Shown: positions 18,615 to 52,585 of the stretch, piece by piece | Position numbering within the stretch: position 1 is the stretch's first letter | Layout of the letters: the number at the start of each line of letters is the position of its first letter | From: Malania oleifera | Taxonomy: Eukaryota > Streptophyta > Magnoliopsida > Santalales > Ximeniaceae | DNA: 64,000 bases | Direction: 5' to 3' | Assembly: GCF_029873635.1 (NCBI RefSeq) | Contig: NC_080423.1 | Location: 110,253,087 to 110,317,086, forward strand | Program-made: the position numbers and the translations under genes | Notes under the pieces: model-generated | What the model was told of the DNA's origin: nothing | The model's input: only the letters and a program-made list of their open reading frames with translations | Database searches by the model: none

Positions 18615-20291
18615 TTATTTTTGTGATCTAGAAAAAACACCCCATACTTTACTCCGGCCCAGGCTCTCCAAAAGCTTCCTGGCACCTTCGACATCCATCT
18701 CCACGAGTTTCTTCAAGTACCCACAAGCTCCAGCAGCAACCATCTGTTTCCTGCACTTCTTTGAATGCACAAGCAAGGCTAAAACAGAAACAGGGTACTT
18801 CTTATCCAAACTCTGCATTGGATCCAAAAGCTGAACCACACTCACCATCCCTCTTTCATCCTTCCTAAAAATCTTCTTATTTTCTGCACATGACAACAGA
18901 TTTGACAATGCCTTCACAGCAGCTTCCTTCTCTTCAAAGGCTTTACCCTCCAACATTCCAATCAGAGCAGAAACACACCCGCATTCCCCCATCTCCTTCC
19001 TCATTTTCGGGCTAAACCCGAGCTCATTAACTGCATGAGCAGCGGCTATTCTCACTCCCAACACCCCACAATTCAAAACCCCCACAAGCCTGCTCACAAA
19101 CCCATCAGAAACAAGAGCTTCGGCCACTGACCGGCACGAAGCCAAGGTCTCCGCCATCTCCACCGCCACTTCGAGACTCCGAACCACCAGTGCCCCATCC
19201 CAGAAAGTCTTCAAACACTCAATCCCTCCCTCCCTAGCAACCAAAAGTTTCAAGTTCACATCATCTGATACCAAATTGCACAAACACCCAATTGCATTTT
19301 CCTGGGCTAATACAGTGCCAGAAGAAGAAACCCTAATAAGGACTGGAATCGCACTCTCCTCCATGAAATTCTCCTTGCATTCTTTAAAATTAGCAAGATT
19401 TCTCAGAACACCAGCAGCCAGGGCTTGCGAAGAAGGCGTTCCGGACTCGCAAATCTCTAACAGAGATGAAATCCCGCCCCTGGACCCGACCAATCTCGCG
19501 TTCTCCTTCGAGAAGGTGAGAGACTGGAGGGTTAAACAAGCTTTCTCCTTTGAAATTCCACTTCCCGATTCGAGAACTCGGAGAAGATGGTTCAGGAGGA
19601 AAACCCCCTCCGCTAACAAAACATTTTTGCTGCTTTCCACCATCGAAACCCTAGAAATCGCTGAAATCGTCTTCTCCTTCATCTCCGAATCGAGAAGATG
19701 GTTTGAATCGAGCAATCGAACCAGGACGGGCACCACACCCTGAGCGACGGCGATCATAACGTGCTTATCGTCCTCCTGAATTAACCTCAGCAGCGAGTCC
19801 ATTGCCGATTTCTTCGATTCCTGATTCCCTATCTGCAGCCGAGTTATCAAACTCCTCGACTCAACCCGTACGGCCTCGCGCTTCGAACTCATCGACTCAC
19901 CGGGGCCGGGAAAGAGGCCGTCCTGAAGCACGCCGCTCCTAATCAAGACCTCCCCATCTCTAATATGTCGATCGAGCTTCGCCGAGATCGCGTCGACTTC
20001 GCTCTGTGTCTTCAGTTTCCCTTCCGTCAAGGTTGGGTCCCGGCACTTCCCAGCGAGCGAAACGGCGTCGGTGAGCGTTTGCGAGAGCGAATTGAGAAGC
20101 TCCGCGGACAAAGCACAAGAAAAGAAGCCCGGAAAATCGGAGAAATCGCAACATTGTGATTGGAGATCGGCGAGCTTTGCTTTGATAACAGACCATTTCC
20201 CCTTGAAGTTCTGCACGCAAGGTATTTCTTCCGAGAGAGACGAGATCAGCTTCTTCACGACCTCCACTTGGTCATCCTCTGGTCTTTCCAT
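18615..20291 (-). CDS. Armadillo-repeat protein, intronless, 558 residues
   Basis: A single open frame from ATG at 20291 to the stop at 18615. Residues 1-110 form a helical N-terminal region (MERPEDDQVEVVKKLISSLS, then a K/L/D-rich stretch). From about residue 150 onward come tandem armadillo repeats with typical phrases: QGVVPVLVRLLDSNH (~185), GGISSLLEICESG (~272), ESAIPVLIRVSSSGTVLAQENAIGCLCNLV (~315), CVSALIGMLEGKAFEEKEAAVKALSNLL (~440). There is no U-box, so it is not a PUB E3 ligase. It resembles the plant ARM-superfamily (vacuolar protein 8-like) proteins of about 550-570 residues whose cellular role is unclear; ARM domains mediate protein binding. The gene is GC-richer than its surroundings and appears whole. 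The upstream ATG context and lack of an earlier in-frame start support this start. Confidence 0.9.
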   Translation of the reverse strand: MERPEDDQVEVVKKLISSLSEEIPCVQNFKGKWSVIKAKLADLQSQCCDFSDFPGFFSCALSAELLNSLSQTLTDAVSLAGKCRDPTLTEGKLKTQSEVDAISAKLDRHIRDGEVLIRSGVLQDGLFPGPGESMSSKREAVRVESRSLITRLQIGNQESKKSAMDSLLRLIQEDDKHVMIAVAQGVVPVLVRLLDSNHLLDSEMKEKTISAISRVSMVESSKNVLLAEGVFLLNHLLRVLESGSGISKEKACLTLQSLTFSKENARLVGSRGGISSLLEICESGTPSSQALAAGVLRNLANFKECKENFMEESAIPVLIRVSSSGTVLAQENAIGCLCNLVSDDVNLKLLVAREGGIECLKTFWDGALVVRSLEVAVEMAETLASCRSVAEALVSDGFVSRLVGVLNCGVLGVRIAAAHAVNELGFSPKMRKEMGECGCVSALIGMLEGKAFEEKEAAVKALSNLLSCAENKKIFRKDERGMVSVVQLLDPMQSLDKKYPVSVLALLVHSKKCRKQMVAAGACGYLKKLVEMDVEGARKLLESLGRSKVWGVFSRSQK

Positions 20292-20640
20292 GGTGGGTAC
20301 TCAGAGAGCGAGAGATTCACACTTTAAAGCCTACCCAACATACCCACTTAGTGATTTTCAGGTATTTTCATGTCCGCTACTCTCCCCGACGATCACAGTT
20401 TCTACGGAGAAGAGACGAAGAAGAAAAGTAGAAGAGACAGACTAGGTCTTAAGAGTCTACGCTCTACAGAGAGAGAGAGAGAGAGAGAGATGGTGACAGT
20501 TTAGAACCTACACATTTGGTCGTTTTCCGGTAAACCCACGGCGGCTACTCCCAGTAGACTACCACAGTTTCAACGAAGGATAGAGATGGAGAGAGAGTTG
20601 CAGAGGAAATGGCGAGAAGAAGAAGAAGAAGAAGAAGGTG
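20292..20640 (-). promoter_or_regulatory. 5' leader and proximal promoter of ARM-repeat gene
   Basis: On the gene's strand this is CT-rich: a long CT run at 20469-20490 and a TTC run near 20618-20636. CT microsatellite leaders are common in plant 5' UTRs. I see no clear TATA box. On the plus strand the same stretch reads as GA and GAA repeats, which create spurious open frames. Confidence 0.45.
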
Positions 20641-28070: not shown

Positions 28071-28332
28071 CTTTATCATTAGTTGAGGCTAATTTTGAAA
28101 CGAATGTTAACATTAAATGGCATTAATTTAAGGTAGATAGTAATATTTAATTTACCAAAAAAAAAGTTTAACATGAAATGCAAACCCTCCCTATAAATTA
28201 ACATAATATGGATGCATTAAGCACATACTAGACATTTCTCTTCATACATGACCTGTTTTCTTACCTCATCGAAATATTCAGAAGACTTGATATTTTTGAA
28301 CTTCATTTATGGAAGAGATATAATAGGTCTAA

Positions 28333-28466
28333 CATAAATAATAAGAGCCAACCAAGTTAGCCAAGGATGATTCGCTCGTAAGTATCAAGTTAAGAACATC
28401 TGCACAACGTATATAGATGATATTTAGCAAATCATCCTTGGCTACCAACTCGACTCTTATCTATAT
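28333..28466 (-). ncRNA. MIR169: MIR169 hairpin with near-canonical miRNA core
   Basis: The minus-strand transcript folds into a long stem. The 5' arm carries TAGCCAAGGATGATTTGCT (ending at 28444 on the plus strand); the 3' arm covers the complement of TAGCCAAGGATGATTCGCTC (28358-28377). Pairing extends outward through ATAAGAG/CTCTTAT. Known plant miR169 is UAGCCAAGGAUGACUUGCCUG; this differs near the 3' half only. miR169 targets NF-YA transcription-factor mRNAs. The flanking 'ggtctaacat' is the complement of the 'atgctagacc' found after every plus-strand hairpin downstream, so it is a member of the same repeated locus, inverted. Expression cannot be judged from sequence. The 5' arm on the opposite strand also looks like miR169 because the stem is nearly perfect. 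Confidence 0.72.
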
Positions 28467-29825
28467 GCAAGACCACTCTTCATAGCTCGGTGTCAATCCA
28501 TAAGCATTCGATTTTATTTTGTGATATGTTGTGATGAATGGAGGGATCACCCACAATGCTATTTATAGCAATATTTTACAAGTCTTCAACTAAAATATTG
28601 CATGCTCTCAAAGCCAATAATAGAATATATTCTCATGAAATTTATTTATTTAAAAAAAAAAAGGAAAAAGTTTGGGAATATTGTTTTAAATATTTTGATG
28701 CTTTAAAGCATGATCTACTAGCTTGTTGGATTGTAGCATTAGTGGGAATTCAATATTGTCAGCCAATTGTTAATGAATCAACTTTTATTAATTAATTGGG
28801 TCTCTTCTCCCACTAACCCTTGCAAAACCCAACCAATCCATGTACTAATATATTAGTTTTTTTTTTCTTCTAAAAATATTATTCTAATAATTAAAAAATA
28901 AAATTCATCAAAATATATTTCAAATATGTTAGAACATGATTAAAATATGCTATAAGTAATTATATATTATAATGCATCAGCTTTGCCCAATAGCGTCGTA
29001 ATAAACATTATTCATTAACAATCTATATCAACTTAAACTTTAAGATGAATCAATTCTTTAATATCATGATATCTGAGATCTTGTGACAAAAGATTTAATT
29101 TTTGATGCTTATTTTTTCATTCTTTTAATTAATAATAAACAATTAAAATTTCAGTATAAGGTTTAACATTACTATGCTTTCTCCAAGCCCAATATACCTT
29201 TTCGTAAAAGGTTATTAGAAATAATTTTAAACTATTTCTAAAACCTGCATCTACCGAATTAATTTTTTCAATGAATTGGTTCTTTGACATTTCATATGGT
29301 TATGAAGTAAGTGGCCTATGTATTGTAAAAATATTTTTTTATATAATGAATAAAATTGCAAGCTTTGCTTTTTTGAACGATAATTTAAAATAATATTTTT
29401 AAAATGATTAAAAAAAATTGTGTTCAATTTTTGTTATTGCATCTATTTGTCCCCCAAAAAAAGAAAAATTTTTTTTTTCTTGTTGTCTATGTTCAATTTT
29501 TTATGTTCAACTGTATTTGACACCCATTCATGGAGGGTAGTGGAAAGAACATGACATAGAGAATCAATATCTTCATCTTCTCATCATAAGAATATATGCC
29601 ACTCTGAGGTTGAAAAGAATCCAAGTCCATGATCATGAGATGACAAACAAAATGGTATGAAAGAGATAATTAATATTATGGCAAGGTGGGCGAAGAATAC
29701 TAATTAATATTATTATAAATTACATGTTAGGGCAATTTTAACATTGTAATGTTGTATATGTTCGTCATTTGGTTATAAATACTAAGTTTATTGGTGAGTT
29801 TCGATATTGAAGATGGGTGGTCGTC
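28467..29825. other. AT-rich intergenic DNA
   Basis: No exon or named repeat can be supported. An open frame at 28538-28795 (+) is AT-rich with an internal poly-lysine run from a homopolymer and no motif. Confidence 0.4.
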
Positions 29826-30520: not shown

Positions 30521-30694
30521 TGTTAGACCTTGCTCCTCTATAAACTAAACTCTACTAGTTGGCTAAAATATTAGCACCCATTTGTTCAATCTTTGTGCAA
30601 TCCTCCCTCCCCCTCCCAAAAAAAAAAAAAATGAAAAAGAAATGTAACGTGAAGGTTGAACAATCAGTCACATGGTGCATAAGAAGTCAATGTG

Positions 30695-31258
30695 TTCGAA
30701 TAAAGGCCATGAGTGTGGCTTACACTCTTCTTGACACGAATGTCACCTAATTTTCAGACGATAGAGGTTAGCTATACAAGATTAAAGCATGACTAGTGAT
30801 CGCCAATGTACAAAATTTATGACATGAAGGAAAAACACGTATTGAATAAATATCATGAGTGTGACTTACACTCAGCCTAACACGAATGTCACCTAATCAT
30901 TAGACGATAGAGGTCATCTCAACAAGCATAGAGCATGACTAGTGATCGCCAATGTATAAAATTTATGACATGAAGAAAAAACGTGTATTGGATAAAGGTC
31001 ATGAGTGTGACAACACGAATGTCACCTAATCATAAGACGACAGAGGTCATCTCAACAAGCATAGAGCATGACTAGTGATTGCCAATGTATAAAATTTATG
31101 ACATAAAGTAAAAAACATGTATTGAATAAAGGTCATGAGTGTGACTTACACTCTGCCTAACACGAATGTCACCTAATCATCAGACGACAAATGTCATCTC
31201 AACAAACATAGAGCATGACTAGTGACCGCCAATGTACAAAATTTATGACATGGAGGAA
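30695..31258 (+). repeat. Minisatellite, four copies of about 145 bp
   Basis: Copies begin near 30697, 30844, 30989 and 31124 with 'gaataaaggtcatgagtgtg'. Each continues 'aacacgaatgtcacctaatc', 'agacgatagaggtcatct', 'agcatgactagtgatcgcca', 'atgtataaaatttatgacat'. Periods are about 147, 145 and 135; the third copy lacks a piece near its start. A worn part of a fifth unit follows to about 31300. No reading frame is conserved. Confidence 0.9.
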
Positions 31259-31300
31259 ACTCGATAAAATAACACAAATGTCGTCCAATCATCAAATAAT

Positions 31301-33540: not shown

Positions 33541-33557
33541 TCTCATTCCCCTTTAGC

Positions 33558-33565
33558 TATAAATA
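33558..33565 (+). promoter_or_regulatory. TATA box of MIR169-like block A
   Basis: TATAAATA in 'gctataaataatggcat'. The same phrase 'gctataaataatagcat' with matching downstream 'tccatc', 'gaagga' and 'gtgtatgata' occurs at 49136 in block B, at the same distance before the first hairpin (about 160-180 bp). Conservation in both copies supports a shared pri-miRNA promoter. Confidence 0.6.
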
Positions 33566-33733
33566 ATGGCATGGCTTTTGGGAGCCTCAATTGTGTCCAT
33601 CCATCACAATATTATAGAAGGATGGAGTTAAAATTGATACAAAAATAGAGTAGCCGTGTATGATAACGAAGAGGATGAGTTGATAAAGCATAATGCAATT
33701 ATGCAAAATACATACCAAGGAAGAGTGGTCATG

Positions 33734-33893
33734 CATGAAGACAAAGAGTCGAGTTTGGTAGCCAAGAATGAGTTGCCGAATTCCACCTTAAGGCCTTTAT
33801 ATTTAGATATAAAGAGCAGCCTTGCAAGAAGCCCTTAATTTGGCAGTTAGGCACTCATTCTTGGCTAACCTAGTTGACCCTTGTCATTCATGC
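33734..33893 (+). ncRNA. MIR169-like hairpin A1
   Basis: The 5' arm TAGCCAAGAATGAGTTGCCG (33759-33778) pairs with the 3' arm GGCACTCATTCTTGGCTAAC (33850-33869). The stem continues outward to 'catgaag' and 'cattcatg' at the base, with a loop near 70 nt. Compared with miR169 the core has G-to-A at position 9 and C-to-G at position 14. It lies about 170 bp downstream of a TATA box, first in its block. Confidence 0.65.
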
Positions 33894-34123
33894 TAGATCT
33901 ACTACTTTATCCACAAAAGTTAAGACTCTAATTAACATTTTCAATATGTATATTCTCAATGGTATATCTTCAATCTATGTGAAACAAATATGAAGTGGGA
34001 GGTTACATATATTGATGATGATGATGACGACAACGACGACGATGAGGATAGTGAAGAAGAGAATGATTATGATGAGTCAATCAAGACAAATGATTCAAGT
34101 TATATTGAGAAAAAGTGGCTTTA

Positions 34124-34419
34124 CATGAAGATAAAGAGTCAAGTCTAGTGGCCAAGAATGAGTTGCCTAATTTCACCTTAAGGTGTATTTATGTATGTAT
34201 ACATAAACCACAAGATATACTACTCATTAAAGCTTGTGACTTCCCTATTGAAGGCATGGGAAGAAGTGTAGGATAGGGATGAACTACCTTCCATTGGGTA
34301 ACTCAAGCCTGATGTGGGCATTCCTATCAAGTAAAAACAAAATATTTGTGTAGGAAGCTCTTTATTTGACATTTAGACACTCATTCTTTGCTAACTTTGT
34401 TGACCATTGTCATTCATGT
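34124..34419 (+). ncRNA. MIR169-like hairpin A2 with a long loop
   Basis: The 5' arm TGGCCAAGAATGAGTTGCCT (34149-34168) and the 3' arm ACACTCATTCTTTGCTAAC (34376-34394). The distance between arms is about 205 nt instead of about 70, so the loop has gained sequence. Spacing from hairpin A1 is about 390 bp. The long loop makes efficient processing less likely. Confidence 0.5.
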
Positions 34420-34508
34420 CAAACCTACTATATTTTTTTTTACTAATAAAGTAAAACTCTAATTGTTATTCCAATTTGAATGTCTTGTCTTTGTATAAAA
34501 GAGATATA

Positions 34509-35165
34509 TGTTGTGTGTCCCTCCTTGTGGGGCCCTTGACTTGAAAGCTGCACCATTCTTTAATGTTTTTGGCTTCCCAGGAAGGAAAATAGCTGCAACA
34601 TGCTTTTTGTTTTAGGCTCCAAGGCCTCACGCGCAAGGGTAGCATGCTGCCCCTTCATCTCCTTTTTTACCATCTTGTCTTGTAATAGCAAATAGTCTAC
34701 GCAACCAGCTGCCCTCTCCACTCTCTCTGTTTTTTTTATTGACGGAAACACCACACAGCTCCTCACGCCAACGTCTGCAGCCAATGCGGATCGTCTTCTC
34801 CGCTGCAGGCTGCTGTTCTTCCCTACTCCAGTTGTGTGTGTTATTTACAGCATATTTGGATTTCTTTTATTGTGGTCATTTGGTTGGTTCTTTGGAACTT
34901 TGTTCATAATATTTGGTGAGGCATTTCCATCTTGTTACATTTGTTTATACACTCTTGTGTATTTGTAAGGCTTGTACCTTTTTTGTATCCACTTTGTACA
35001 ACATATTTGGTGATAATGGATTTGGACCGCCGTGCCCCATGGACGTACCTCAACATTTGAGGGAACCACGTTAAATTTTGTGTGTCTCATTTTATTTATT
35101 CATTTTTCATTACTCCATTGATTTACTTGTGGGAATTAGTTCATATTTAATATTCTTCCCTAACA
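34509..35165 (+). repeat. 5' LTR of the copia element
   Basis: 657 bp, TGTTGTGTGTCC to TTCCCTAACA, with matching inverted ends TGTTG/CTAACA. It is some 11 bp longer than its partner because of one internal indel. Confidence 0.92.
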
Positions 35166-38100
35166 AGTGGTATCAGAGCCGTGTTATTTGTACGCATTAA
35201 ATTTGTGTAAATCATGGATGGTAATGTTGGCCGTATGATTAACTTCAATGGAAACAATTGGGTAACTTGGAAAACAAAAATGCAAGATCTTTTATTTTTC
35301 AAAGATTTGGATGGGCCTATTGAGGGTGATAGCCGAGACTAAAGACATGAGTGATGATGAGTGGAATAGGTTTAATAGGAAAATCGTTGGTGTTATCCGG
35401 CAATGGATTGATGATAGTGTTTTTCATCATGTTTCTACCGAAATTTCGGCATATGAATTGTGGAAAAAACTAGAGTCTTTATGATAGAAAGTTGGCTACA
35501 AATAAAACTTTTCTTTTCCGAAAATTGGTGAATTTGAAATATAAAGATGGTGGTCTTATTACTGAGCATTTGAATGAGATGAAAAATATTATCAATCAGT
35601 TTGCTACTATGAAAATAATTTTTGATGATAAATTGCAGGTCTTAATGCTTCTTAACTCTTTGCCGGAAAGTTGGGAGACTTTGGTTGTGACTGTTAGTAA
35701 TTCGGCTCCCGATGGAATTGTTACTATGAATCAAGTAACTAGCAGCTTGTTAAATGAAGAAATTAGAAGAAAATCAGTTGGCTCTTCTCATTCAGAGGCA
35801 CTTGTGATAGAAAACCGGGGGAGAGGTAGAAGTAAAAGTAGATATTCTCACCGTAATGATAAATCAAGAGGTTGATCCAGCTCAGTTTCGAAAAAAAATA
35901 TTGAGTGCCACTATTGTCATAAAAAGGGGCATATGAAGCGGGAGTATAGAAAATTGAAATTTAAGGAGCAAAACAAAAAGAAAAATTTTGAGAAAAAACA
36001 TGAAAACACAACTTTAGTTGCATCTGATGGTGATCTCATGGTTGTTTGTGATGAAAGTAGCACTAATTTGACAAGTGAAGAGACTGATTGGGTTATTGAT
36101 TCCGGTGCATCATTCCATGTCACTTCTTAGGGAGATTTCTTCACCTCTTATTCCAAAGAAAATTATGGATTTGTTCAGATGGGAAATGAAGGTTTGTCAA
36201 AAATTGTTGGCATTGGAAATGTTTGTTTGGAAACAAATCTTGGATGTAAGTTAGTGCTCAAAGATGTGAGACATGTACCCGATATTCGACTAAATTTGAT
36301 ATCTACCGGAAAGCTTGATGATGAAAGGTTGACAACCATTTTGGTAATGGAAAATGGAAGCTCACAAAGGGTAATTTGGTGGTGGCTAAAGGCAAGAAAA
36401 CCGGTACACTTTATATGATGCAAGGTAAAATTGGTAATGGTGTTATGAATGCAATTGAAAGTCATTCTTCCACTGATTTTTGGCATAAGCGGCTTGGGCA
36501 CATGAGTGAAAAAGCAATGCCGTTTTTGTTAAAAAAGAAGCTCCTACCCGAGATGAAAGGTACCTTTCTTAAAGCTTGTGTTCATTGTTTGGCCGGTAAG
36601 CAACATAGAGCTCATTTTCGTACAAAGTTTGTTACTAAAAAATCTAATGTTTTAGATTTGATACATTCAGATATATGTGGTCCTTTGAAAGTTAAATCTC
36701 ATGGTGGTGCACTTTATTTTGTTACCTTTATTGATGATTGTTCAAGAAAAGTTTGGGCTTACACTTTGAAGACTAAAGATCAAGTCTTAGATGTGTTTAA
36801 GCATTTTCAAGTTAAAGTTGAAAGGGAGACCGGAAAGAAGGTGAAATGTGTGCGCTCGGATAATGGTGGAGAGTACATTGGCCCATTTGATGCATATTGT
36901 TACAACCAAGGAATTAGACATCAAAAGACCGTCAAGAAAACCCCTCAACAAAATGGTATTGCTAAAAGGATGAACCGCACTATACTAGAGAGAATGAGAT
37001 GTATGCTCTCTCATGCGAAGTTGCCAAAATCATTTTGGGGTGAAGCAATGAGGATGGCGATGGACTTGATTAATTTGTCTCCTTGAACTCCTTTACTTGG
37101 TGAAGTTCTTGAAAAAATTTGGAAAGGTAAGGATGTCACTTATGATCACTTGAAAGTGTTTGGTTGTCGTGCATTTGTTCACATTCCAAAAGATGAAAGA
37201 TCCAAACTTGATGACAAGACAATGCAATGTATTTTTCTTGGCTATGGGCATGATGAATTTGGATACAGATTGTGGGATCCGGTTGACAAGAAAATTGTTA
37301 GAAGCCGAGATGTTGTATTTTTTGAAGATCAAACAATTGAAGATTTTGGCACGGTTGAGCAACCACAATCTAATGGGAATGATTTTGTTGACTTAGACTT
37401 ACCTTCTCCACTTTTGGCACATGATGAAAATATGGAAGATGTTCTTCCACCTCTTGAAGATGTCGGAAATGATGAAATTCCTAATGATGTTGAAGATGAA
37501 AATGAGGGGGAGCAACAAGTTCAAGAGCAAGCTCAATTGAGAAGGTCTTCAAGAGAGTCAAGACCTTCATCTAAATATCCATCAAGTGACTATGTTACTC
37601 TAACAGATCAAGGGGAACCCGAAAGCTATCAAGAAGCCATGAACCATGAAAATAAAGTTGAATGGATGGAGGCTATGCAAGAGGAAATGAATTCTATAGT
37701 TGACAATCACACTTATGATTTGGTTAATCTTCCTCCTAGAAAGAAAGCTTTGAAAAATAAATGGGTGTTTAGACTGAAAAAGGATGGAAAGAATTTTTGG
37801 TACAAGGCTAGGCTTGTGGTAAAAGGCTTTGGTCAGAAAAAGGGAATTGACTTTGATAAAATATTCTCACCGATTGTAAAGATGTCATTTATTCGGGTTG
37901 TTCTTGGCATGGCAGCATACTTGAATTTAGAAGTTAAGCAACTAGATGTGAAAACCGCTTTCTTACATGGTGACTTTTAAAATGAAATTTACATGGAACA
38001 ACCGAATGACTTCAAATAAAAAGGGAAAGAGAATTTAGTGTGCAAATTAAAGAAAAGTTTGTATGAGTTGAAGCAAGCACCACAGAGATGGTACAAGAAA

Positions 38101-39191
38101 TTTGATTCTTTCATGATTGATCATGGTTACTCAAAAACCTCTTCGGATGATTGTGTGTTTGTGAAAAAATTTTCGGATGACACTTATATTATTCTCTTAC
38201 TCTATGTTGATGATATGCTCATTGTAGGACAGGACTTCTTCAAGATTGACAAATTGAAGTTGGAGTTGAGCAAGTCTTTTGCTATGAAAGACTTGGGACT
38301 AGCAAAACAAATTCTTAGTATGAGAACTGTTCGTGATCGTGAAAAAGGGCTAATTTGGTTGTCTCAAGAAAGTTACACTGAAAAAGTGCTTGAGAAGTTC
38401 AATATGGATAAAGCAAAACCCGTTGGTTGCCCACTTGCTAGTCTCTTCAAGCTTAGTTCAAAACAAAGTCCTACAAGTGAAAAAGACAAGGAAGAGATGA
38501 AGAAAAATCTTTATGCTTCGGCCGTTGGTTCCTTAATGCATGCAATGGTTTGCATAAGACCATATTTAGCTTATGTTGTTGGAGTTGTTAGTCGGTTTCT
38601 CTCTAATCCAGGAAAGGAGCATTGGTTAGCGGTAAAATGGATTCTCCAATACCTTAGAGGCACTTCAAAGGTGTGCTTGTTCTTTAGAAATGGTAAATCT
38701 ACGTTCCATGGATTTACGGATGCCAACATGGCCGGTGATGTTGATTCTAGAAAATCCACTTCGGGTTATTTGATGACTTTTGTAGGGGGAGCTGTGGCAT
38801 GACAATCTAAATTACAAAAATGTGTTGCTCTATCTACTACGAAAGTCGAGTTTATTGCCATTACGGAAGCTGGCAAAGAATTGCTTTGGTTGAAGAGATT
38901 CTTGAAAGAGTTGGGGATGGAACAGGAAAGGTATGTTCTTTATTGTGATAGCCAAAGTGCAATTCATTTGAGAAAGAATTCTATCTTCCATTCAAAGTCA
39001 AAACATATTGATGTTAGATATCATTGGATTCAGGATGTGTTGGATAAGAAATTATTGCAGCTTTACAAAATTCATACTGATGATAATGGTTCGGATATGA
39101 TGACTAAAGCATTGTCAAAAGACAAGCATGTGAAGTGTCGAGTTTTGGCCGGATTGGTGGAGTCGTACCCATAAGTCGGGAGGGGGAGATT

Positions 39192-39837
39192 TGTTGGGTG
39201 TCCCTCCTTGTGGGGCTCTTGACTTGAAAGCTGCACCATTCTTTAATGTTGTTGGCTTCCCAGAAAGGAAAACAGCTGCAGCATGCTTTTTGTTTTAGGC
39301 TCTAAGGCCTCATGCGCAGGGGTAGCATGCTACCCCTTCATCTCCTTTTTTACCATCTTGTCTTGTAACAGCAAATAGTCAACGCAACCAGCTGCCCTCT
39401 CCACTCTCTCTATTTTTTTTATTGACAGAAACACCACACAGCTCCTCACGCCAACGTCTGCAGCCAGTGCGGATCGTCTTCTCCGCTGCAGGCTACTGTT
39501 CTTCCCCACTCCAGCTCTGTGTGTTATTGGGATTTCTTTTATTGTGGTCTTTTGGTTGGTTCTTTGAAGCTTTATTCAGAATATTTGGTGAGGCATTTCC
39601 ATCTTGTTACATTTGTTTATACACTCTTGTGTATTTGTAAGGCTTGTACCTTTTTTGTATCCACTTTGTACAACATATTTGGTGATAGTGGATTTGGACC
39701 GCCATGCCCCGTGGACGTACCTCAACATTTGAGGGAACCACGTTAAATTTTGTGTGTCTCATTTTATTTATTCATTTTGCATTACTCCATTGATTTACTT
39801 GTGGGAATTAGTTCATATTTAATATTCTTCCCTAACA
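39192..39837 (+). repeat. 3' LTR of the copia element
   Basis: 646 bp, TGTTGGGTGTCC to TTCCCTAACA. It is colinear with the 5' LTR; most differences are transitions, many at CpG, consistent with methylated decay. Confidence 0.92.
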
Positions 39838-39927
39838 ATATGAAGTAAGACATCATATAATGGAGAAAAAAGTAGATGAGTGGATATAGAAAAATGCAAT
39901 TATTACATATTAAGGAAAAGTGATTTG

Positions 39928-40212
39928 CATGAGGATAACGATTCAAGTTTGGTGTTCAACAATGAGTTGCCCAATTCTGCTTTCAGGGCAATATAAAACA
40001 ATAATAACAAATCAAATCTTAAGTTCCCCATTAGGTGGGGTTGGCTACACGAATCCTTTTCCATCAATATACAATGATCATAGGCTCAAGCATGGAGTGG
40101 GTGGCAAGCCTAAGTCCTTATATCAAAAGAGCGCACAAAGGTTTTTCTTAAGGGATATATAATATATACATATATACATAGGCACTCATTTTTAGCAAAC
40201 TTGATTCCCATG
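39928..40212 (+). ncRNA. MIR169-like hairpin A3, disrupted by an RTE fragment
   Basis: The worn 5' arm 'caacaatgagttgcccaatt' (about 39957-39976) and the worn 3' arm 'ggcactcatttttagcaaac' (40181-40200) are separated by about 205 nt that includes RTE LINE sequence. The family bases 'gcatgagg' and 'cccatgccagacctac' are present. Not expected to be processed. Confidence 0.45.
39993..40105 (-). mobile_element. RTE LINE 3' end fragment inside a hairpin loop
   Basis: 'cttaagttccccattaggtg' followed by 'gggttggctacacgaatcc' matches the 3' end of the RTE LINE at 59.77 kb ('cttaagtcccattaggtata', 'gttggctacatgaatccc'). 'caataataacaaatc' at its left is a remnant of the simple-repeat tail. Orientation is minus. 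Confidence 0.7.
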
Positions 40213-40401
40213 CCAGACCTACTACTTCTCCTTCATGGATAAAAGTTGAAATTATAATCATTATTGCAATATATTCATTCACAGAAAAAGGGAAAAAGAA
40301 AAAAACAAAAAAACAAAAAAAACAAATGCTCTTATTTCTAATGAAGAAGGGTCAATAATAAAGAATGCAATTATAGCATATATCAAGGAAGGGTGGTCTT
40401 G

Positions 40402-40570
40402 CATGAATACAAAGAACTAAGTCTTGTAACCAAGAATTAGTCATGTAATTCCACATTAAGGTCTTTATATATATATATATATATATGAAGAGTATATGAT
40501 CCTATAGAAAGCCTTTAATGTGACATTCATGACTTATTCTTGGCTAACCTGCTTGGTTCTTTGTTGTTTT
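40402..40570 (+). ncRNA. Decayed MIR169-like hairpin A4
   Basis: The 5' arm 'gtaaccaagaattagtcatg' (40427-40446) and the 3' arm 'atgacttattcttggctaac' (40529-40548) still pair over most of their length, with a TA run in the loop. The core is altered relative to the other units. Confidence 0.45.
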
Positions 40571-40767
40571 CTCAAAACCTATTATATCAATTTTACTGAA
40601 AAAAGTTTATACTTAAATTGATATTTCAATAGGTACATTTTCAATGCTATGCCTTCGATCCACATAAAAGAGGTATGACATTGGACGTTCCAATTATTAA
40701 AGAAGAAGGTGACGATGAGTTAATAAAGAAGAATAAAATTTTGATATATTGAGGAAGAGTGGTCTAA

Positions 40768-40917
40768 CGCGAAGATAAAGAGTCAAGTTTGGTAGCTAAA
40801 AATGAATTGCGCAAGTCGTCCTTAAGGTCTTAATATGTATAAATAGAGAGTGGGCACATAAGAAGCTCTTAAAGTGTCATTAAGCACTCATTCTTGGTCA
40901 ACCTGATTGGACCTTTT
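40768..40917 (+). ncRNA. MIR169-like hairpin A5, abutting a gypsy LTR
   Basis: The 5' arm TAGCTAAAAATGAATTGCGC (40793-40812) and the 3' arm AAGCACTCATTCTTGGTCAA (40882-40901). The usual right flank is replaced at 40919 by the start of a gypsy LTR, so the insertion hit the base of this hairpin. Several mismatches in the stem. Confidence 0.45.
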
Positions 40918-40918
40918 T

Positions 40919-44345: not shown

Positions 44346-45320
44346 TGAGACCCAGTTATTTATTTTTTTCATTATTTCCAAATTCTGTTTTGCTAACATA
44401 TGTTTAACTAACATAATATTAGAGGCATGGTTGCCAATCCTCCACCATTATTGGTGCTTCCCCACGTCATCGCTTGTCGTCGTTTATCCTTTTTCACCAT
44501 TGGCACTCCACTACCAGCAAAGATCTCCCACCATCCACAAAATCTCTCTTTCAACCATTTCCCGTGCACCCAATCAACACCACTTGCCCATGTCATCATA
44601 AGATGCCTACTTCCTTGTTCACCTCTCTAGGTTTAGATCTGCACCTAGCTCTTTACTCTCCTCTTCTTGCTCAAATTTGCTCCTAACTCCTTGCTTATCT
44701 CTCCAAGCTCAAATATGCTCCTAGCTCCTTGCTCAAATATGCTCCTAACTCCTTGCACGCCTCTTCAAGCTCAAATATGCTTCTAGTTATTTACTCACCT
44801 CTTCGGGATCAAATATGCTCCTAGCTCCTTACTCCCCCCCCCCCCCTTCAAGCTCAGATAGCTTCTAGGATACTTAGCTCCATGTGCACCTCTCCAACCT
44901 TAAATTTGTGGACTACCATGACCACAAACGACCATGCTCCACCTTGCACTATTACCCCCTAAGTGCCTTATCCTAGTTGTTTTTAGCAGTCTGTTTTGAA
45001 ACACAAGTTGGTTTCTTTTCCTCCTTAAGTTTAAGAGGAGATGTCAATAAAAGACAACTATGTGTGTAAATTATACATACCTACCTAATATAAATTGGCC
45101 CATGTGACACATTATACCTACCTTGTATAAATTAACACATGTGATTCATGTGTGTAAATACTTGTCTTCTATGGATTAAACCATGTGATCTATGTGTGTA
45201 AGAACGAACATTGCATTAATTGAGCCCTTTAAGGCCCAAAGAAGACACAAACTATCATTCATTCATTCTTTCTTTCTTTCTTTCTTTCTTTCCTATCTAT
45301 GTTTTGCTAACAAATACAAT
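44346..45320. other. Unassigned insert with flanking 13-bp repeat and minisatellite
   Basis: TGTTTTGCTAACA occurs at 44386-44398 and 45300-45312, bracketing 901 bp. Inside, about 44625-44880 is a minisatellite built from 'caagctcaaatatgctccta' and 'gctccttgctc' phrases with a run of 13 C (44834-44846), and 45255-45293 is a TTTC run. The pair could be a target-site duplication of an unknown element. I do not recognise the insert. Confidence 0.4.
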
Positions 45321-45344
45321 TATACTAAATAAGGAAGAGCGGTC

Positions 45345-45525
45345 TTGCAAAGATAAAAAGATAGTTTGGTGGCCAAGAATGAGGTACCCATTTCCACTAG
45401 TTTGGTATCCAAGAATGAGTTGCCCATTTCCACCTTAAGGATATATATTTATAAATAAAATGGTCATGCAAGAAGCTTTCAAAATGGCATCCAGAGACTC
45501 ATTCAACCTACTTAGACTTTACTAT
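45345..45525 (+). ncRNA. Decayed MIR169-like hairpin A6 with a doubled 5' arm
   Basis: Two 5' arms in a row, TGGCCAAGAATGAGGTACCC (45370-45389) and TATCCAAGAATGAGTTGCCC (45406-45425), each followed by 'atttccac'. The 3' arm has lost its TTGGCTAA part ('gactcattcaacctact' near 45496), so the hairpin is not functional. Confidence 0.55.
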
Positions 45526-45609
45526 TCCTACTAAACCTACTAATACTTTATGTACAAAAGTTAAAACTTGTGCAATATATCCATTCATAGTTGTACGTCT
45601 ATAAAGAGA

Positions 45610-45765
45610 GGCTTTTTATGAAGACAGAGTCTAGTCTAGTAGATAAGAATGAGTTTTCAAATTACACAAACGTCTTTATATGCATATACATAGATAAAGA
45701 TCGATCATGTACAAAGCCCTTAATCTGGCATTCAACCAAAAAAATTTGTCTAACCTCTCAATCAC
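45610..45765 (+). ncRNA. Decayed MIR169-like hairpin A7
   Basis: The 5' arm 'tagataagaatgagttttca' (45640-45659) and a badly worn 3' arm 'ggcattcaaccaaaaaaatt' (about 45727-45746). The family frame ('aaagagaggctttttatgaag', 'gtctttatatgcatata') is still visible. Non-functional relic. Confidence 0.45.
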
Positions 45766-46862: not shown

Positions 46863-49130
46863 ACTGAATTGGCATTATCCCCAAATTCAATATTTGTAAA
46901 GTTGGAAATGTCAATGCTGAAAGGTGCAGTACCAATTTTAAATAGTCCAAACAGAACAAAGCAAAAGTGTGGGTGATTATGCTTTCTTTTTTGGATATTG
47001 GGCATGGGTTGTCTGATTCTTGCTTTACAGCATTGGATAGAGTATTCTTATCTTTTTTCATGGTGCGCAGAGAACCTCATCAAGTGCCATTGAACAGTGA
47101 ACACCCTTTCGTGTTGTCAAATTTTGGATTTTTTTTTTTTTTTCATTCTATTGATTATAAATAAAATATTTTATATGTACTATTTTTGTGAGAGATAATT
47201 ATGAATTAACCACGCTTAATGGCTTAATATGCATTTTAAATTGTAGTAAAGAAAAATATAAATTTTTATTAGTAATTCTGAGATTCTATATTTTAATTAA
47301 TAAATTTAAGTATTAAAATGTTGTTTTAAAAAATATTTAAGTTATATAAGAAATTATGTAAATATAAATTTTAATTGTTACTCTTAAAAAAAACCAAATA
47401 GTTAAAATATATTTGTGTGAGATTAAGAGTAAAAATAATTACATTTTATATGTAATGGGCAAGGCATATACTTAAAAAAAAAGATTCCACATAAAAGCCA
47501 AGCTCCAAAAAGATAGATAGAAAGGTCCTATTTTATTTTATTTTTTCAAATTTTTTGCTGTAACAAAATTTCAAGAAGTTGCATAGCACAATAAAATAGG
47601 TGAGCTCTTTTCTTCATTGTGATATACATAGGAATATTTCAATGTACATAATTTTTAAAGTCTCATTTGAAATTCCAAAGAAAAAAAAATAGGGAAAGAA
47701 AAAAAAAATGTAAAGAAATTTACTTCTTCATATTAAATTATCAAAGAAAATGAGGAAAAAATAAGAAATATATTTAAATTAATGAATAATTTTTTTATTT
47801 ATGGATAATTAATATTTAATTTCAAAAAAAATTAACCAAGTTAGAACAAATTTTTATTTTCAATAATATTTAATATAAAAGAATACAACAGAAAATAAAA
47901 TTCCTTCTCATTTTTCTTTTCTTTATTTTCCTTTTTCTAATCATCCAAACAGACCTTTAAATAGTATATAAAATGATCCAATGCAATCAAATACCTGTTA
48001 GATTTCTTACTATTATTATATACCAAATCATCATTAGTCCCAAAAACAAAATTTATCATTGAGAATTAACATATAGTCTCTCACTTGTAATCAAATTAGA
48101 CTGTTTCTAACATCAATTTGGTCCATCTTACCGAAAAGTTATAGCACAATTAAATAGAATTGTTTCTCAAATTTCTAATGCAGTTGAATCAAACTACCAG
48201 AAAAATGTGAATAGTAACTCATCGAGGTGCAAGTTTCACAATGCTTTAACCTCAATTTCCAAAAATAAATTAAAATGAATACCATTGAAAAATGAAATTA
48301 AACAATTAAACTATACAACAAATAATAACTTTCTTATTTATGCTATACAGCAATTAACTATATTCATAACTCATACCAATCAATCTTTGTCCAAAACAAA
48401 TTGAAATTTTCAATGCATGAATATATTACAATTCAAAAGTTATTTTAATTATTTCACAAAAATAATACTGTCATCGCTAAAAAAAAATGATTTAGATACT
48501 TTCATGAATATAAGACCGAATAACTTTACACTTTTGGGTCAAATTGGTTATCAGTTGAACCAAATACATTAAACGTAACGAGTGGTATAAGACGATTTAA
48601 TCAGAAATTTCACGAATTGATCTTTGCCATCCCATTCTTCTCATTAAAAATTAAAACTAAAGCACAACTAAAAAAACTTGTTCAATGGCTAAAATTGCTG
48701 GATTAAATTAGCTTTTTCAGGAACAATATTCAAAAATATTTACTAAATACACTAAAATAAATATACAAACATGCCCGACCATGATTGAAATAACAATTAA
48801 CAAAGTTATTACAATCAAATATTGATCCTAATAGTCTAGAATAAATATTTAACCCCTAATTTTTCCCCTAACCTATATTCCTTTCCCTAAAAAATTTATC
48901 TCAAAACTGACCATATTCGTTCATGAATGGGAAGCCCCTGGAAACATACATTAACAGATCTTTTATTTCGACAAAGAATATATACCATTAAAAGTTTGAA
49001 AATTAACAATGACAGGACCAATCAACAAAAGGGAGGGGATAATATTATTGCCCACACAATGGGACAAAGGAAACAGAAAAATTAGCAAGTGAGATGCATA
49101 AACTTTGATTGCAATAGGTCTCATTCTGGT
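46863..49130. other. Upstream region of MIR169-like block B
   Basis: 46863-47165 is homologous to 31480-31870. The rest to 49130 is AT-rich without a supported exon. Short open frames here are random or homopolymer-driven. Confidence 0.5.
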
Positions 49131-49135
49131 TTGGC

Positions 49136-49143
49136 TATAAATA
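49136..49143 (+). promoter_or_regulatory. TATA box of MIR169-like block B
   Basis: TATAAATA in 'ggctataaataatagcat', about 160 bp before the base of the first of six tandem hairpins. It matches 33558-33565 together with its downstream leader. A transcription start near 49165-49175 would be expected from plant TATA spacing. Confidence 0.62.
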
Positions 49144-49293
49144 ATAGCATTGCAGTTGATAGCTTTAGTAGGATCCATCAACCAACGTAGTGTAGAAGGA
49201 AATGGAATCAGGGTTGTAGAAACAGAGCAGTTGTGTATGATAAAGAAGAAGACGAGCTGATAAGGACGGAATTATGGATGAAGAGTGGCCTTG

Positions 49294-49451
49294 CATGAAC
49301 ATGAAGAGTCAAGTTTGGCAGCCAAGAATGAGTTGCCCAATTCTACTGTAAGGTCTTTATATGTATATAAAAGAGTGGTCCTGTAGGAAGCCCTTGATCT
49401 AGCATTTAGGCACTCATTCTTGGCTAACCTGGTTGGCGCTTTTTGTTCATG
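49294..49451 (+). ncRNA. MIR169-like hairpin B1
   Basis: The 5' arm CAGCCAAGAATGAGTTGCCC (49319-49338) begins with the CAG that is typical of miR169a/b. The 3' arm GGCACTCATTCTTGGCTAAC (49409-49428). The stem extends to CATGAAC (49294-49300) against GTTCATG (49445-49451), so about 45 bp per arm with few bulges. The best preserved stem of the set and first after the promoter. Confidence 0.72.
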
Positions 49452-49648
49452 CTAGACCTACTACTTCATTTTCATGGACAAGCTAGAGTTGAAAATAAAA
49501 ATTTGTTATTTCAGTAGGTATATTCGTAGCAGGTATTTCTTTGATCTGCATAAAAGAGACGTAAAGTGGAAAGTTTCATGCAATGAAGAAGCAGGCATGG
49601 AGTTGATAGAAGAATGCAATTATGATATATTGAGGAAGAGTGGCCTTG

Positions 49649-49808
49649 CATCACGATAAAGGGTTAACTCTGGTAGCCAAGAATGAGTTGCCCAATTCCA
49701 CCTTCAGGTCTTTATATGTATGTATAAAGAGTGAAATCCTAGAAGGTCCTTACTTTGGCATTTAGGCACTCATTCTTGGCTAACCTAGTTGGCCCTTGTC
49801 GTTCATGC
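49649..49808 (+). ncRNA. MIR169-like hairpin B2
   Basis: The 5' arm TAGCCAAGAATGAGTTGCCC (49674-49693) and the 3' arm GGCACTCATTCTTGGCTAAC (49765-49784). The unit repeats about 355 bp after B1, with the shared spacer 'tatgatatattgaggaagag'. The base of the stem is slightly worn ('gcatcacg'). Confidence 0.7.
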
Positions 49809-50004
49809 TAGACCTACTACTTCACTTTCATGGACAAGCTAGAGTCTAAACTAAAAATTTGTTACTTTAGTAGGTATATCCACCGTGGGTATGTCTTTGA
49901 TCTGCATAAAAGAAACATGAAGTGGAAGGTTTCAAATGATGATGAAGAAGAAAAGGAGTTGACAAAAGAAAGCAATTATGATATATTGAGGAAGAGGGGC
50001 CTTG

Positions 50005-50165
50005 CATGAAGATAAAGGGTCAGCTCCGGTAGCCAAGAATGAGTTGCCCAATCTCATCTTAAGGTCTTTATATCTATGTATAAAGAGTGATATCCTAGGA
50101 AGTCCTTAATTTGGCATTTAGGCACTCATTGTTGGCTAAGCTGGTTGGCTCTTTTTGTTCATTCA
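50005..50165 (+). ncRNA. MIR169-like hairpin B3
   Basis: The 5' arm TAGCCAAGAATGAGTTGCCC (50030-50049) and the 3' arm GGCACTCATTGTTGGCTAAG (50121-50140), with two changes in the 3' arm producing mismatches. About 356 bp from B2. The miRNA arm itself is unchanged. Confidence 0.68.
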
Positions 50166-50354
50166 AGACCTACTACTTCATTTTCACAGACAATCTAGAG
50201 TCGAAACTAACTTTTTTATTTCAATAGGTATATTCACGCCAGTATTTCCTCAATCTGTATAAAAGGGAGATGAAGTGGAAGGTTTTGTATGATGAAAAAG
50301 CAGTCGAGTTGATAGAAGAAAGCAATTATGATATGTTGAGGAAGAGTGTTCTTG

Positions 50355-50512
50355 CATGAAGATAAAGAGTCAACTCTGGTAGCCAAGAATGAGTTGCCTA
50401 ATTCCACCTTAAGGTATTTATACATATATTTAAAGAGTGATCTTCTAGAAAGTCCTTAATCTAGCTATAGGCACTCATTCTTGGCTAACCTGGTTAGCCC
50501 TTTTTGTTCATG
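50355..50512 (+). ncRNA. MIR169-like hairpin B4
   Basis: The 5' arm TAGCCAAGAATGAGTTGCCT (50380-50399) and the 3' arm GGCACTCATTCTTGGCTAAC (50470-50489). The terminal CCT matches the miR169h-type 3' end better than its neighbours. About 350 bp from B3. Confidence 0.7.
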
Positions 50513-50709
50513 CTAGACCTACTATTTCATTCTATGGACAAGCTAGAGTCAAAACTCAAAATATTTCAAATTTTAACCGGCATATTTGCAGTTGTATTTC
50601 TTGGATCAACGTAAGAAAGACACGACATCGGAAGGTTTCACACGAGGATGATGAAGTTGACTCAATAAAGAAGAATGCAATTATGATATATTGAAAAAGA
50701 GTGGTCTTG

Positions 50710-50872
50710 CATGAAGATGAAGAGTCGAGTTTGGTAGCCAAGAATGAGTTGCCCAATTCGACCTTAAGGACTTCATGTGTGTATAAATAAAGAGTGGTCA
50801 CGCAGGAAGCCCTTAAATGCGATTTTTAAGCACTCATTCTTGGCTAACCTGAGCAGCCCTTATCATCCATGC
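50710..50872 (+). ncRNA. MIR169-like hairpin B5
   Basis: The 5' arm TAGCCAAGAATGAGTTGCCC (50735-50754) and the 3' arm AAGCACTCATTCTTGGCTAA (50828-50847). The outer stem right side has changed (CTGAGCAGCCC in place of CTGGTTGGCCC). About 355 bp from B4. Confidence 0.66.
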
Positions 50873-51011
50873 CAGACCTACTGCATTGACAAAAGCAGCA
50901 ATTCTGATCAATACTACAATACATGCATTCCCAGCACATCTCTGATCAATTCGATAGGAGTCCTACTTGATGAAGAAGAAGATTGACGCAAAAGAACACA
51001 ATTACAATATA

Positions 51012-51189
51012 CATTAAGAGGAAGATAAACAGCCAACTTTGGTAGCCAAGAATGAGTTGCCCCATTCAACCTTAAGATCCTTATGTGTGTGTGTGTAGAG
51101 CGACAGAAAGAGAGAGAGATCATATAAAGTCCATAATCTGGCATTAGGTACTCATTCTTCATTAACTTGGTTGGCCCTTTTCATTCATG
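51012..51189 (+). ncRNA. MIR169-like hairpin B6
   Basis: The 5' arm TAGCCAAGAATGAGTTGCCC (51043-51062) and the weaker 3' arm 'ggtactcattcttcattaac' (51147-51166). GT and GA runs lie in the loop (51084-51118). About 308 bp from B5. A partial further unit without arms follows to about 51355. Confidence 0.55.
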
Positions 51190-51360
51190 CTAGACATACT
51201 ACTGGACAAGCTAGAGTGAAAACCAAAATATTTGATATTTGAAATAAGTATGTTTCGGCGGTGTTTCTTCCATCCATGTAAAAGAGACGTGGAGTGGAAG
51301 GCTTCGTGCGATGAAGATGAAGAGGTTGATCCAATAAAGAAGAATGCAATAAAAAAGATT

Positions 51361-52585
51361 ATTTGTTGGTGGTGTTTGATTCATGTTTTCATTGAACATT
51401 TTGCCTATACTCCACTGCTCACTATCATTCTGTGGACTCTGCAATAAAATAACCTATTAGTTTTATGATCTGCACATGCATAGGTCAACAGTGCATGGAT
51501 AAAAAGAATAGAATGGAAGCCAGGACCAGACAAGGTTCATTTCTCCCAGACCATCCCCTACGTCATTCATTAAGAAGGTTCCTCCAAGATTGAAATATCA
51601 CATACAGTATGAAGTCAATGCATGTGCATGTATATAGGTGTTCTACTCTTAGACATTTTAGCACAGATACAATAAAATTTGTCAATTGCAATCCTAAACT
51701 TTAACCCCAAGCTTGAAAACTTCATGTTCGAACCTTAAATTTAGATTGGTATGAGTTTAAACAAAACCATGATATAGAATAATATTGAATTTCAACTAAA
51801 TCCATAAAAATTAAAGGCCTGAAATTGATACTCCCAAACATAATCTAAGAGAAATCATACATAAGCTGAAGCAAATTTCCTTTTTCCCCCCTCAAAAAAA
51901 CTCCTTAAGATCTCTAGTTTACGAACAGGTTAAACTGTGATTAACCAAGAATCCATTTCCACTGGGGATGATGATTTCCTTACAATAATATTTTTATTGG
52001 AAAATCTTGGGAAACAACAAGTGTAAAACCGAAGGAATGTAAGGTGCCCTACTAACATTTATGCTCAAACTCCCTACTTTATTTTATAATAAATTCCATG
52101 GTATTCTTAAAATAAATCACCAAAATTGGTTACATATCATTTCAAATAACTTCTAAATTCTGTTACTACATGGTAGAAACAATTACAATTTTGCCAACAG
52201 AAGTGCTAGAGAACAGAGACGATGAAATTAACTGCTTGAAAGAAATGGTGTTGCATTTCCACAAGAGAAAGTCGCCCCATTTTCTACAATCTACAGTTGA
52301 AGAAATTCACGTGCAGAGATGCAAATGCTTCATTTTTTTTTAATTTTTCCTATTATTCTTTCCAGTGATTTTCTTTGCCAAGCAGAAGAGTAATACTGCA
52401 ATCTCAACCGAAAAAAAGAGGGTATGAGGCGCAAAGGGATAGAAAATAATCAAATAATCTATAATCTAGAAGACCTAACCACAAGACCTGTTTAACTTGG
52501 GTTTGATTGCTTTGCCAAGGCAGCTTCACGTTCCTGATGACGACGTTCTCTCTGGAAAAATTCAATACACACTAATAAACATGAA
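51361..52585. other. Intergenic DNA right of the array
   Basis: No exon or named repeat can be supported. A short open frame at 52497-52685 runs into the L1 poly(A) end and is spurious. Confidence 0.4.

Follow-up and report, generated by a model that had tools for sequence, protein, structure and literature searches.

The stretch of DNA analysed here, referred to below as the window, comprises 64,000 nucleotides from Malania oleifera, a root-hemiparasitic tree of Santalales, and corresponds to C7:110253087-110317086 of the 1.494-Gb assembly. Between 49.28 and 51.20 kb it contains six MIR169-type units arranged head to tail, all on the plus strand, whose 5' arms begin at 49319, 49674, 50030, 50380, 50735 and 51043. 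These six starts match the original prediction, which had described a regularly spaced row of near-identical arms on one strand with a period of about 350 bp. Successive 5' arms are separated by 355, 356, 350, 355 and, at the end of the row, 308 bp, and TRF assigns a period of 356 bp across 49273-50851, in agreement with the predicted repeat length. Where 0.76 occurrences of the 12-mer AGCCAAGRATGA would be expected with one mismatch tolerated, the window has 23, a count that none of 100 shuffles reached. Polycistronic homologous miRNA clusters are made up of hairpins of a single family that sit close together on the same strand, and this is the arrangement found in the array. Comparison with the window as a whole places the array within a larger MIR169 family that extends from 28.3 to 51.2 kb.

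Folding each unit, a check that had been proposed together with the prediction, indicates that five of the six units can form a precursor hairpin on the plus strand. In unit 1 (49285..49465) the miR occupies 49319-49339 and the star begins at 49408 (MFE -66.5, z -5.3); in unit 2 (49640..49820) they lie at 49674-49694 and from 49764 (MFE -77.0, z -7.8); in unit 3 (49996..50176) at 50030-50050 and, with 2 edits in the star, from 50120 (MFE -70.1, z -5.6); in unit 4 (50346..50525) at 50380-50400 and from 50469 (MFE -63.5, z -6.6); and in unit 5 (50700..50885) at 50735-50755 and from 50828 (MFE -74.4, z -7.6). The z-scores of these five units thus run from -5.3 to -7.8, and for each unit none of 200 shuffles folded as low. 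Their duplexes leave one or two miR positions unpaired, and the stars are 20-21 nt long at a 2-nt overhang. Unit 6 (51020..51200, plus) has kept its 5' arm (51043-51063), but its 3' arm carries 4 edits, five miR positions are unpaired, the duplex dG is -16.2, and the fold is no better than that of shuffled sequence (z +0.6; 142 of 200 shuffles as low). The array therefore has five foldable hairpins and not the six working ones that had been claimed, because unit 6 no longer folds. The arms are conserved, as described, except that unit 1 opens with C instead of T; units 1, 2 and 4 match the originally quoted 3' arm letter for letter, units 3 and 5 depart from it by one change, and in unit 6 this arm is broken.

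Besides the array, this 23-kb MIR169 neighbourhood includes one intact copy (33.76 kb), one in inverted orientation (28.4 kb) and seven that have decayed. The intact copy, H33 (33541..33903, plus), bears a promoter with a TATA core at 33556, has its miR at 33759-33779 and folds with a z of -9.0; it matches Rfam MIR169_5 at 48 bits on the minus strand and MIR169_2 at 49.1 bits, just under the cut-off, on the plus strand. It belongs to a second row on the plus strand that continues with H34 (34103..34430), which has an insertion in the loop and edited arms, and with the decayed copies H39 (39867..40240), H40 (40341..40570; Rfam 37.8 bits, below cut-off) and H40b (40747..40918; 26.8 bits, below cut-off). 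Three fragments, H45a-c (45313..45732, plus), consist of 5' arm remnants without a good 3' arm. The inverted copy, H28 (28320..28569, minus), carries the isoform TAGCCAAGGATGATTTGCTAA and a TATA core at 28569-28560, and matches Rfam MIR169_2 at 55 bits on the minus strand. A further 45-bp match to the array is present at 29804. Between H28 and H33, at 30690-31259, lies a 146-bp tandem repeat of four copies, which gave no match to the MIR169 units when the window was compared with itself.

Within the putative promoter region of the array (49079..49243, plus), the TATA core GCTATAAATA occupies 49134-49143 and precedes the unit 1 miR by 185 nt. This 10-mer is found three times in 64 kb against 0.26 expected, each time on the sense strand at the head of H28, H33 or unit 1 and nowhere else in the window, at distances of 125, 203 and 185 nt from the respective miR. 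The regions preceding unit 1 and H33 align over the TATA core with a score of 61 (shuffled maximum 30; 0 of 1000 shuffles). The head of H28 aligns with the other two at scores of 23 and 24, which were reached by 21 and 18 of 1000 shuffles; as the rest of this alignment is weak, promoter homology at H28 rests on the 10-mer and its position. A single GCTATAAATA does therefore stand at the head of the array, where one TATA box had been predicted, but TATA-like strings also occur before units 2, 3 and 4 (CATAAAAG at 49549 and 49905, TATAAAA at 50258), 122-125 nt ahead of each miR. A string scan of the plus strand for the candidate poly(A) signal AATAAA located it after the row at 51333, 51348 and 51443 (region 51333..51448) and inside the row at 49494 (spacer 1), 50664 (spacer 4) and 50786 (unit 5).

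Since the spacers before units 2-4 contain TATA-like strings and spacers 1 and 4 contain AATAAA, separate or shorter transcripts have to be considered. The units may be transcribed individually or in smaller groups from the spacer elements, with no six-unit polycistron, and we assign to this reading roughly one chance in five. The transcription start site of rice miR169n, supported by RT-PCR, lies about 130 nt upstream (PMC2670843), which favours such initiation within spacers; against it, the conserved 10-mer is confined to the heads of H28, H33 and unit 1, and the spacers that precede units 5 and 6 contain none of the TATA-like strings scanned for. A single transcript covering the array is plausible.

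In each of the two rows headed by a promoter, it is the copies nearest the promoter that are intact. Relative to the consensus, the arms (miR/star) carry 0-1/0-2 edits in units 1-5 and H33, 1/4 in unit 6, 2/2 in H34, 4/3 in H39, 7/3 in H40 and 4/3 in H40b, and 3/7, 1/7 and 5/8 in H45a, H45b and H45c, the 3' arm scored for H45b being the same as that of H45a; for comparison, when 200 stretches of 50 nt were drawn at random, even the best match to the miR had 7 edits or more. Position in the row does not explain all of this decay, as H34 is decayed though second in its row and next after H33 behind the same promoter. A Copia LTR retrotransposon (34503-39838; LTR repeats 34503-35166 and 39186-39838) lies between H34 and H39, and because its joined flanks align with ordinary array spacer, it must have landed in a continuous MIR169 row. 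The two LTRs are 93.7% identical (K2P 0.051), which at the rates we assume would date the insertion to about 2-10 million years ago. The insertion was considered as the cause of the decay and rejected: LTR divergence predicts 1.06 edits per 42 arm bases, and H39, H40 and H40b have 7, 10 and 7, an excess over the age of the element with Poisson p values of 1e-4, 2e-7 and 1e-4, respectively. By this estimate the three copies had mostly decayed before Copia arrived, and the row is therefore not a clean experiment in which a promoter has been cut off.

The 5' arms of the array specify a local 21-nt isoform, (U/C)AGCCAAGAAUGAGUUGCC(C/U)A, which over positions 2-19 agrees with the canonical AGCCAAGGATGACTTGCC of this genome at 16 of 18 letters and departs from it at A9 and G14. 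In the whole 1.49-Gb assembly the exact 18-mer occurs eight times, seven of them in the window (units 1-6 and H33). The sole match outside is a complement at C1:114950054, 111 nt past the stop codon of an NF-YA gene; two exons of this gene match PF02045, and the site is exact at miR positions 2-19. NF-YA is the classic target of miR169. The C1 site itself matched no Rfam family. When one mismatch was allowed, 16 sites were found in the genome, two of them at NF-YA loci, C1 and C9:95.36. Across the genome PF02045 identifies 14 exons that make up seven NF-YA loci. Within about 1.5 kb of these exons, and with three isoforms tried, five loci have sites that score 3.0 or better, the locus at C9:85.46 has a weak one (5.0, canonical isoform), and that at C7:60.46 has none up to a score of 6.

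Expressed as a fraction of perfect pairing energy, the isoforms of the array and H33 reach 0.85-0.98 on the C1 gene, with which the array isoforms pair best, 0.81-0.88 on C9:95.36, and no more than 0.59-0.70 on the C6 and C2 genes. On the C1 site, canonical isoforms reach 0.69-0.77; the canonical C3 isoform, whose best partner is a different NF-YA gene, gives 0.69 there and 0.86 on C6, and the H28 isoform (G9, U14) pairs best with the C6 NF-YA gene, at 0.95. Several observations count against specificity: the array and canonical isoforms are about equal on C9:95.36, and the canonical C10 isoform scores 2.5 on C1, the same as units 2, 3 and 5 over all 21 letters. Moreover, every one of the four letters is found opposite miR position 14 among the six NF-YA sites, and C as well as U opposite position 9; of the eight variants that combine A or G at position 9 with any letter at position 14, five would match some NF-YA site by luck. 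For this reason we do not claim co-evolution of isoform and target. It is a speculative and rather unlikely proposal that the array represents a target-dedicated branch of miR169, in which A9 and G14 give a perfect match to one NF-YA gene at the expense of pairing with others, tandem amplification then raised the dose, and the family was split into private channels for single paralogous targets.

Conservation within the array is concentrated in the arms. Pairwise identity among the six units is 0.952 for the miR, 0.889 for the star, 0.71 and 0.80 for the lower stem, 0.66 for the loop and 0.61 for the spacer. Invariant columns make up 32 of 42 in miR plus star versus 96 of 311 elsewhere (p 2e-8), or 26 of 64 in the lower stem alone (p 3e-4), and the 7 of 333 windows that equal or beat the miR window are that window itself and its overlapping neighbours. 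The RNAalifold consensus of units 1-5, H33 and H28, from which unit 6 and the decayed copies were left out, contains 55 pairs, of which 7 are changed on both sides, one of these at miR position 9; its covariation term, taken at face value, is nevertheless slightly unfavourable at +2.09. None of the nine inner branches of the hairpin tree is well supported, and thus no order of duplication is claimed. Arm conservation could in part reflect shared recent ancestry, though loop and spacer are equally old. This difference in conservation within the same units, together with the exact NF-YA target and the retained promoter, makes it very improbable that the locus is an inverted-repeat satellite that feeds 24-nt siRNA, has no miRNA function and owes its conserved arms only to recent duplication, even though the tandem repeat adjoins decayed copies and an LTR element.

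Assignment to the MIR169 family is complicated by strand. Units 2-5, H33 and H28 exceed the curated cut-offs of Rfam MIR169 models with matches that all lie on the minus strand, among them MIR169_5 in units 2-5 and H33 (57 bits for unit 2 with MIR169_5, 56.6 for unit 3, 58 for unit 4 and 47.6 for unit 5). On the plus strand units 1-5 score 35.4-48.8 (48.8 for unit 4), under a cut-off of 50; neither strand of unit 1 reaches the cut-off (47.2 on plus, 40.5 on minus), and unit 6 has no listed match. Three features lead us to take the plus strand as sense: the promoter faces rightward, the 5' arm has the full miR169 length on this strand, and the exact NF-YA complement is found for this strand only. 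The best Rfam matches would point to the minus strand, from which reads of UUAGCCAAGAAUGAGUGCC would come, but that this strand is functional is very improbable, since the hairpin is nearly symmetric, several canonical MIR169 loci of the same genome likewise match Rfam on both strands, and the minus-strand 5' arm is short of one base. With this caveat on strand, the Rfam matches, the folding, the arm conservation and the exactly complementary NF-YA site in the same genome support the identification of the units as MIR169-like precursors.

Used as a DNA query, the array has relatives in this window only among the best candidates scored, if three short matches (42-43 bp) to its repetitive part are set aside. 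A genome search with RF00645 returned at least 43 matches, which after merging of overlaps give at least 24 hairpins on C3, single ones on C1, C10 and C12, and H28; these counts are lower bounds because the array, whose plus-strand scores are under the cut-off, is not listed. The hairpins on C3 form a second, canonical MIR169 cluster of 24 hairpins in 141 kb (C3:108598985-108740324), mostly in pairs, and the six copies read there have the canonical positions 2-19. Although it belongs to the same family and genome, this cluster consists mostly of pairs 179-278 bp apart and has both orientations, whereas the array is head-to-tail on one strand. Two of its pairs, at 108643 and 108655 kb, score identically, as would be expected if 12 kb had recently been duplicated. 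Ten matches to AGCCAAGRATGANTTGCC (L016-L019, L023, L024, L027-L030) have an AAGCC start in common; L016, L018, L023, L024 and L028 gave no match against Rfam, and some of the ten look by eye like coding sequence (GKSSLAL).

The array had been put forward as an undescribed system. Homologous MIR169 clusters have, however, been published from Arabidopsis, rice and soybean, and a larger one lies elsewhere in this genome, so that claim is not supported. Soybean has tandem loci on chromosomes 9 and 15 in which MIR169 genes are mixed with MIR169-like copies, a pattern read as birth and death, and its NF-YA targets were confirmed by 5'RACE (PMC3481472). The array resembles these loci in its mixture of tandem genes with MIR169-like copies and in its predicted NF-YA target; the soybean loci hold three and two named genes plus MIR169-like copies, whereas the array has six units with a regular 350-bp period, one isoform and one conserved promoter head. 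The rice pair MIR169n-o, with an RT-PCR-supported upstream start site, likewise arose by tandem duplication and targets NF-YA, but comprises two copies 3.7 kb apart instead of six (PMC2670843). Rows in which a single conserved miRNA is repeated are also known from Arabidopsis MIR169i-n and other homologous plant clusters, with up to eight copies in rice MIR395; a few such clusters have cluster-spanning ESTs, and in the passages of that report concerned with these clusters no regular 350-bp MIR169 row is mentioned (PMC2812943). For hickory, the corresponding passages report tandem miR166 and not a miR169 row (PMC5708078). Literature searches for the array isoform (18-mer and 16-mer, in both alphabets; supplements lay outside the search), and for the target string together with miR169 and NF-YA, returned nothing. 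No small-RNA or miRNA study of M. oleifera was found among the best-ranked matches, and neither "miRNA" nor "miR169" was found in the main text of its genome paper (PMC10199050). The array is a further example of a kind of cluster already known from plants, with an unusual regularity and a local isoform.

We consider it likely, with some reservation, that the array is a functional MIR169 cluster that has grown by tandem duplication, is probably polycistronic and specifies a local isoform. The features that suggest this, namely the hairpins, the arm conservation, the promoter shared with H33 and the exact target site, are present in the DNA itself. From general knowledge of plant miRNA biology we infer how transcription, processing, polycistrony, repression and dose might follow from them. 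RNA polymerase II would most likely initiate some 30 nt past the TATA box at 49134 and, reading rightward through several units, yield a pri-miRNA in which as many as five hairpins can fold, unit 6 being dead. DCL1 would cut each hairpin to release 21-nt 5'-arm miRNAs of one local isoform, and these would guide AGO1 to NF-YA 3' UTRs, above all that of the C1 gene, with which they could pair at every position from 2 to 19. Repetition of the hairpin would raise the dose.

With this isoform and the NF-YA site that matches it, one can ask whether an ancient miRNA family may be partitioned between paralogous targets, and the unit-specific end letters would allow the output of each copy to be counted. 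Letters 20-21 read UA in unit 4, GA in H33 and CA in units 2, 3 and 5, while unit 1 is set apart by its first letter. Furthermore, two rows in which copies are intact near the promoter and decayed further on offer a good place to study the life and death of tandem miRNA copies. A CASP-like protein of the window agrees with a Malania oleifera record at 100% over 46% of the query. Elsewhere in the window, the minus strand has a long open reading frame (18615-20300) for a protein with armadillo repeats and DUF7032.
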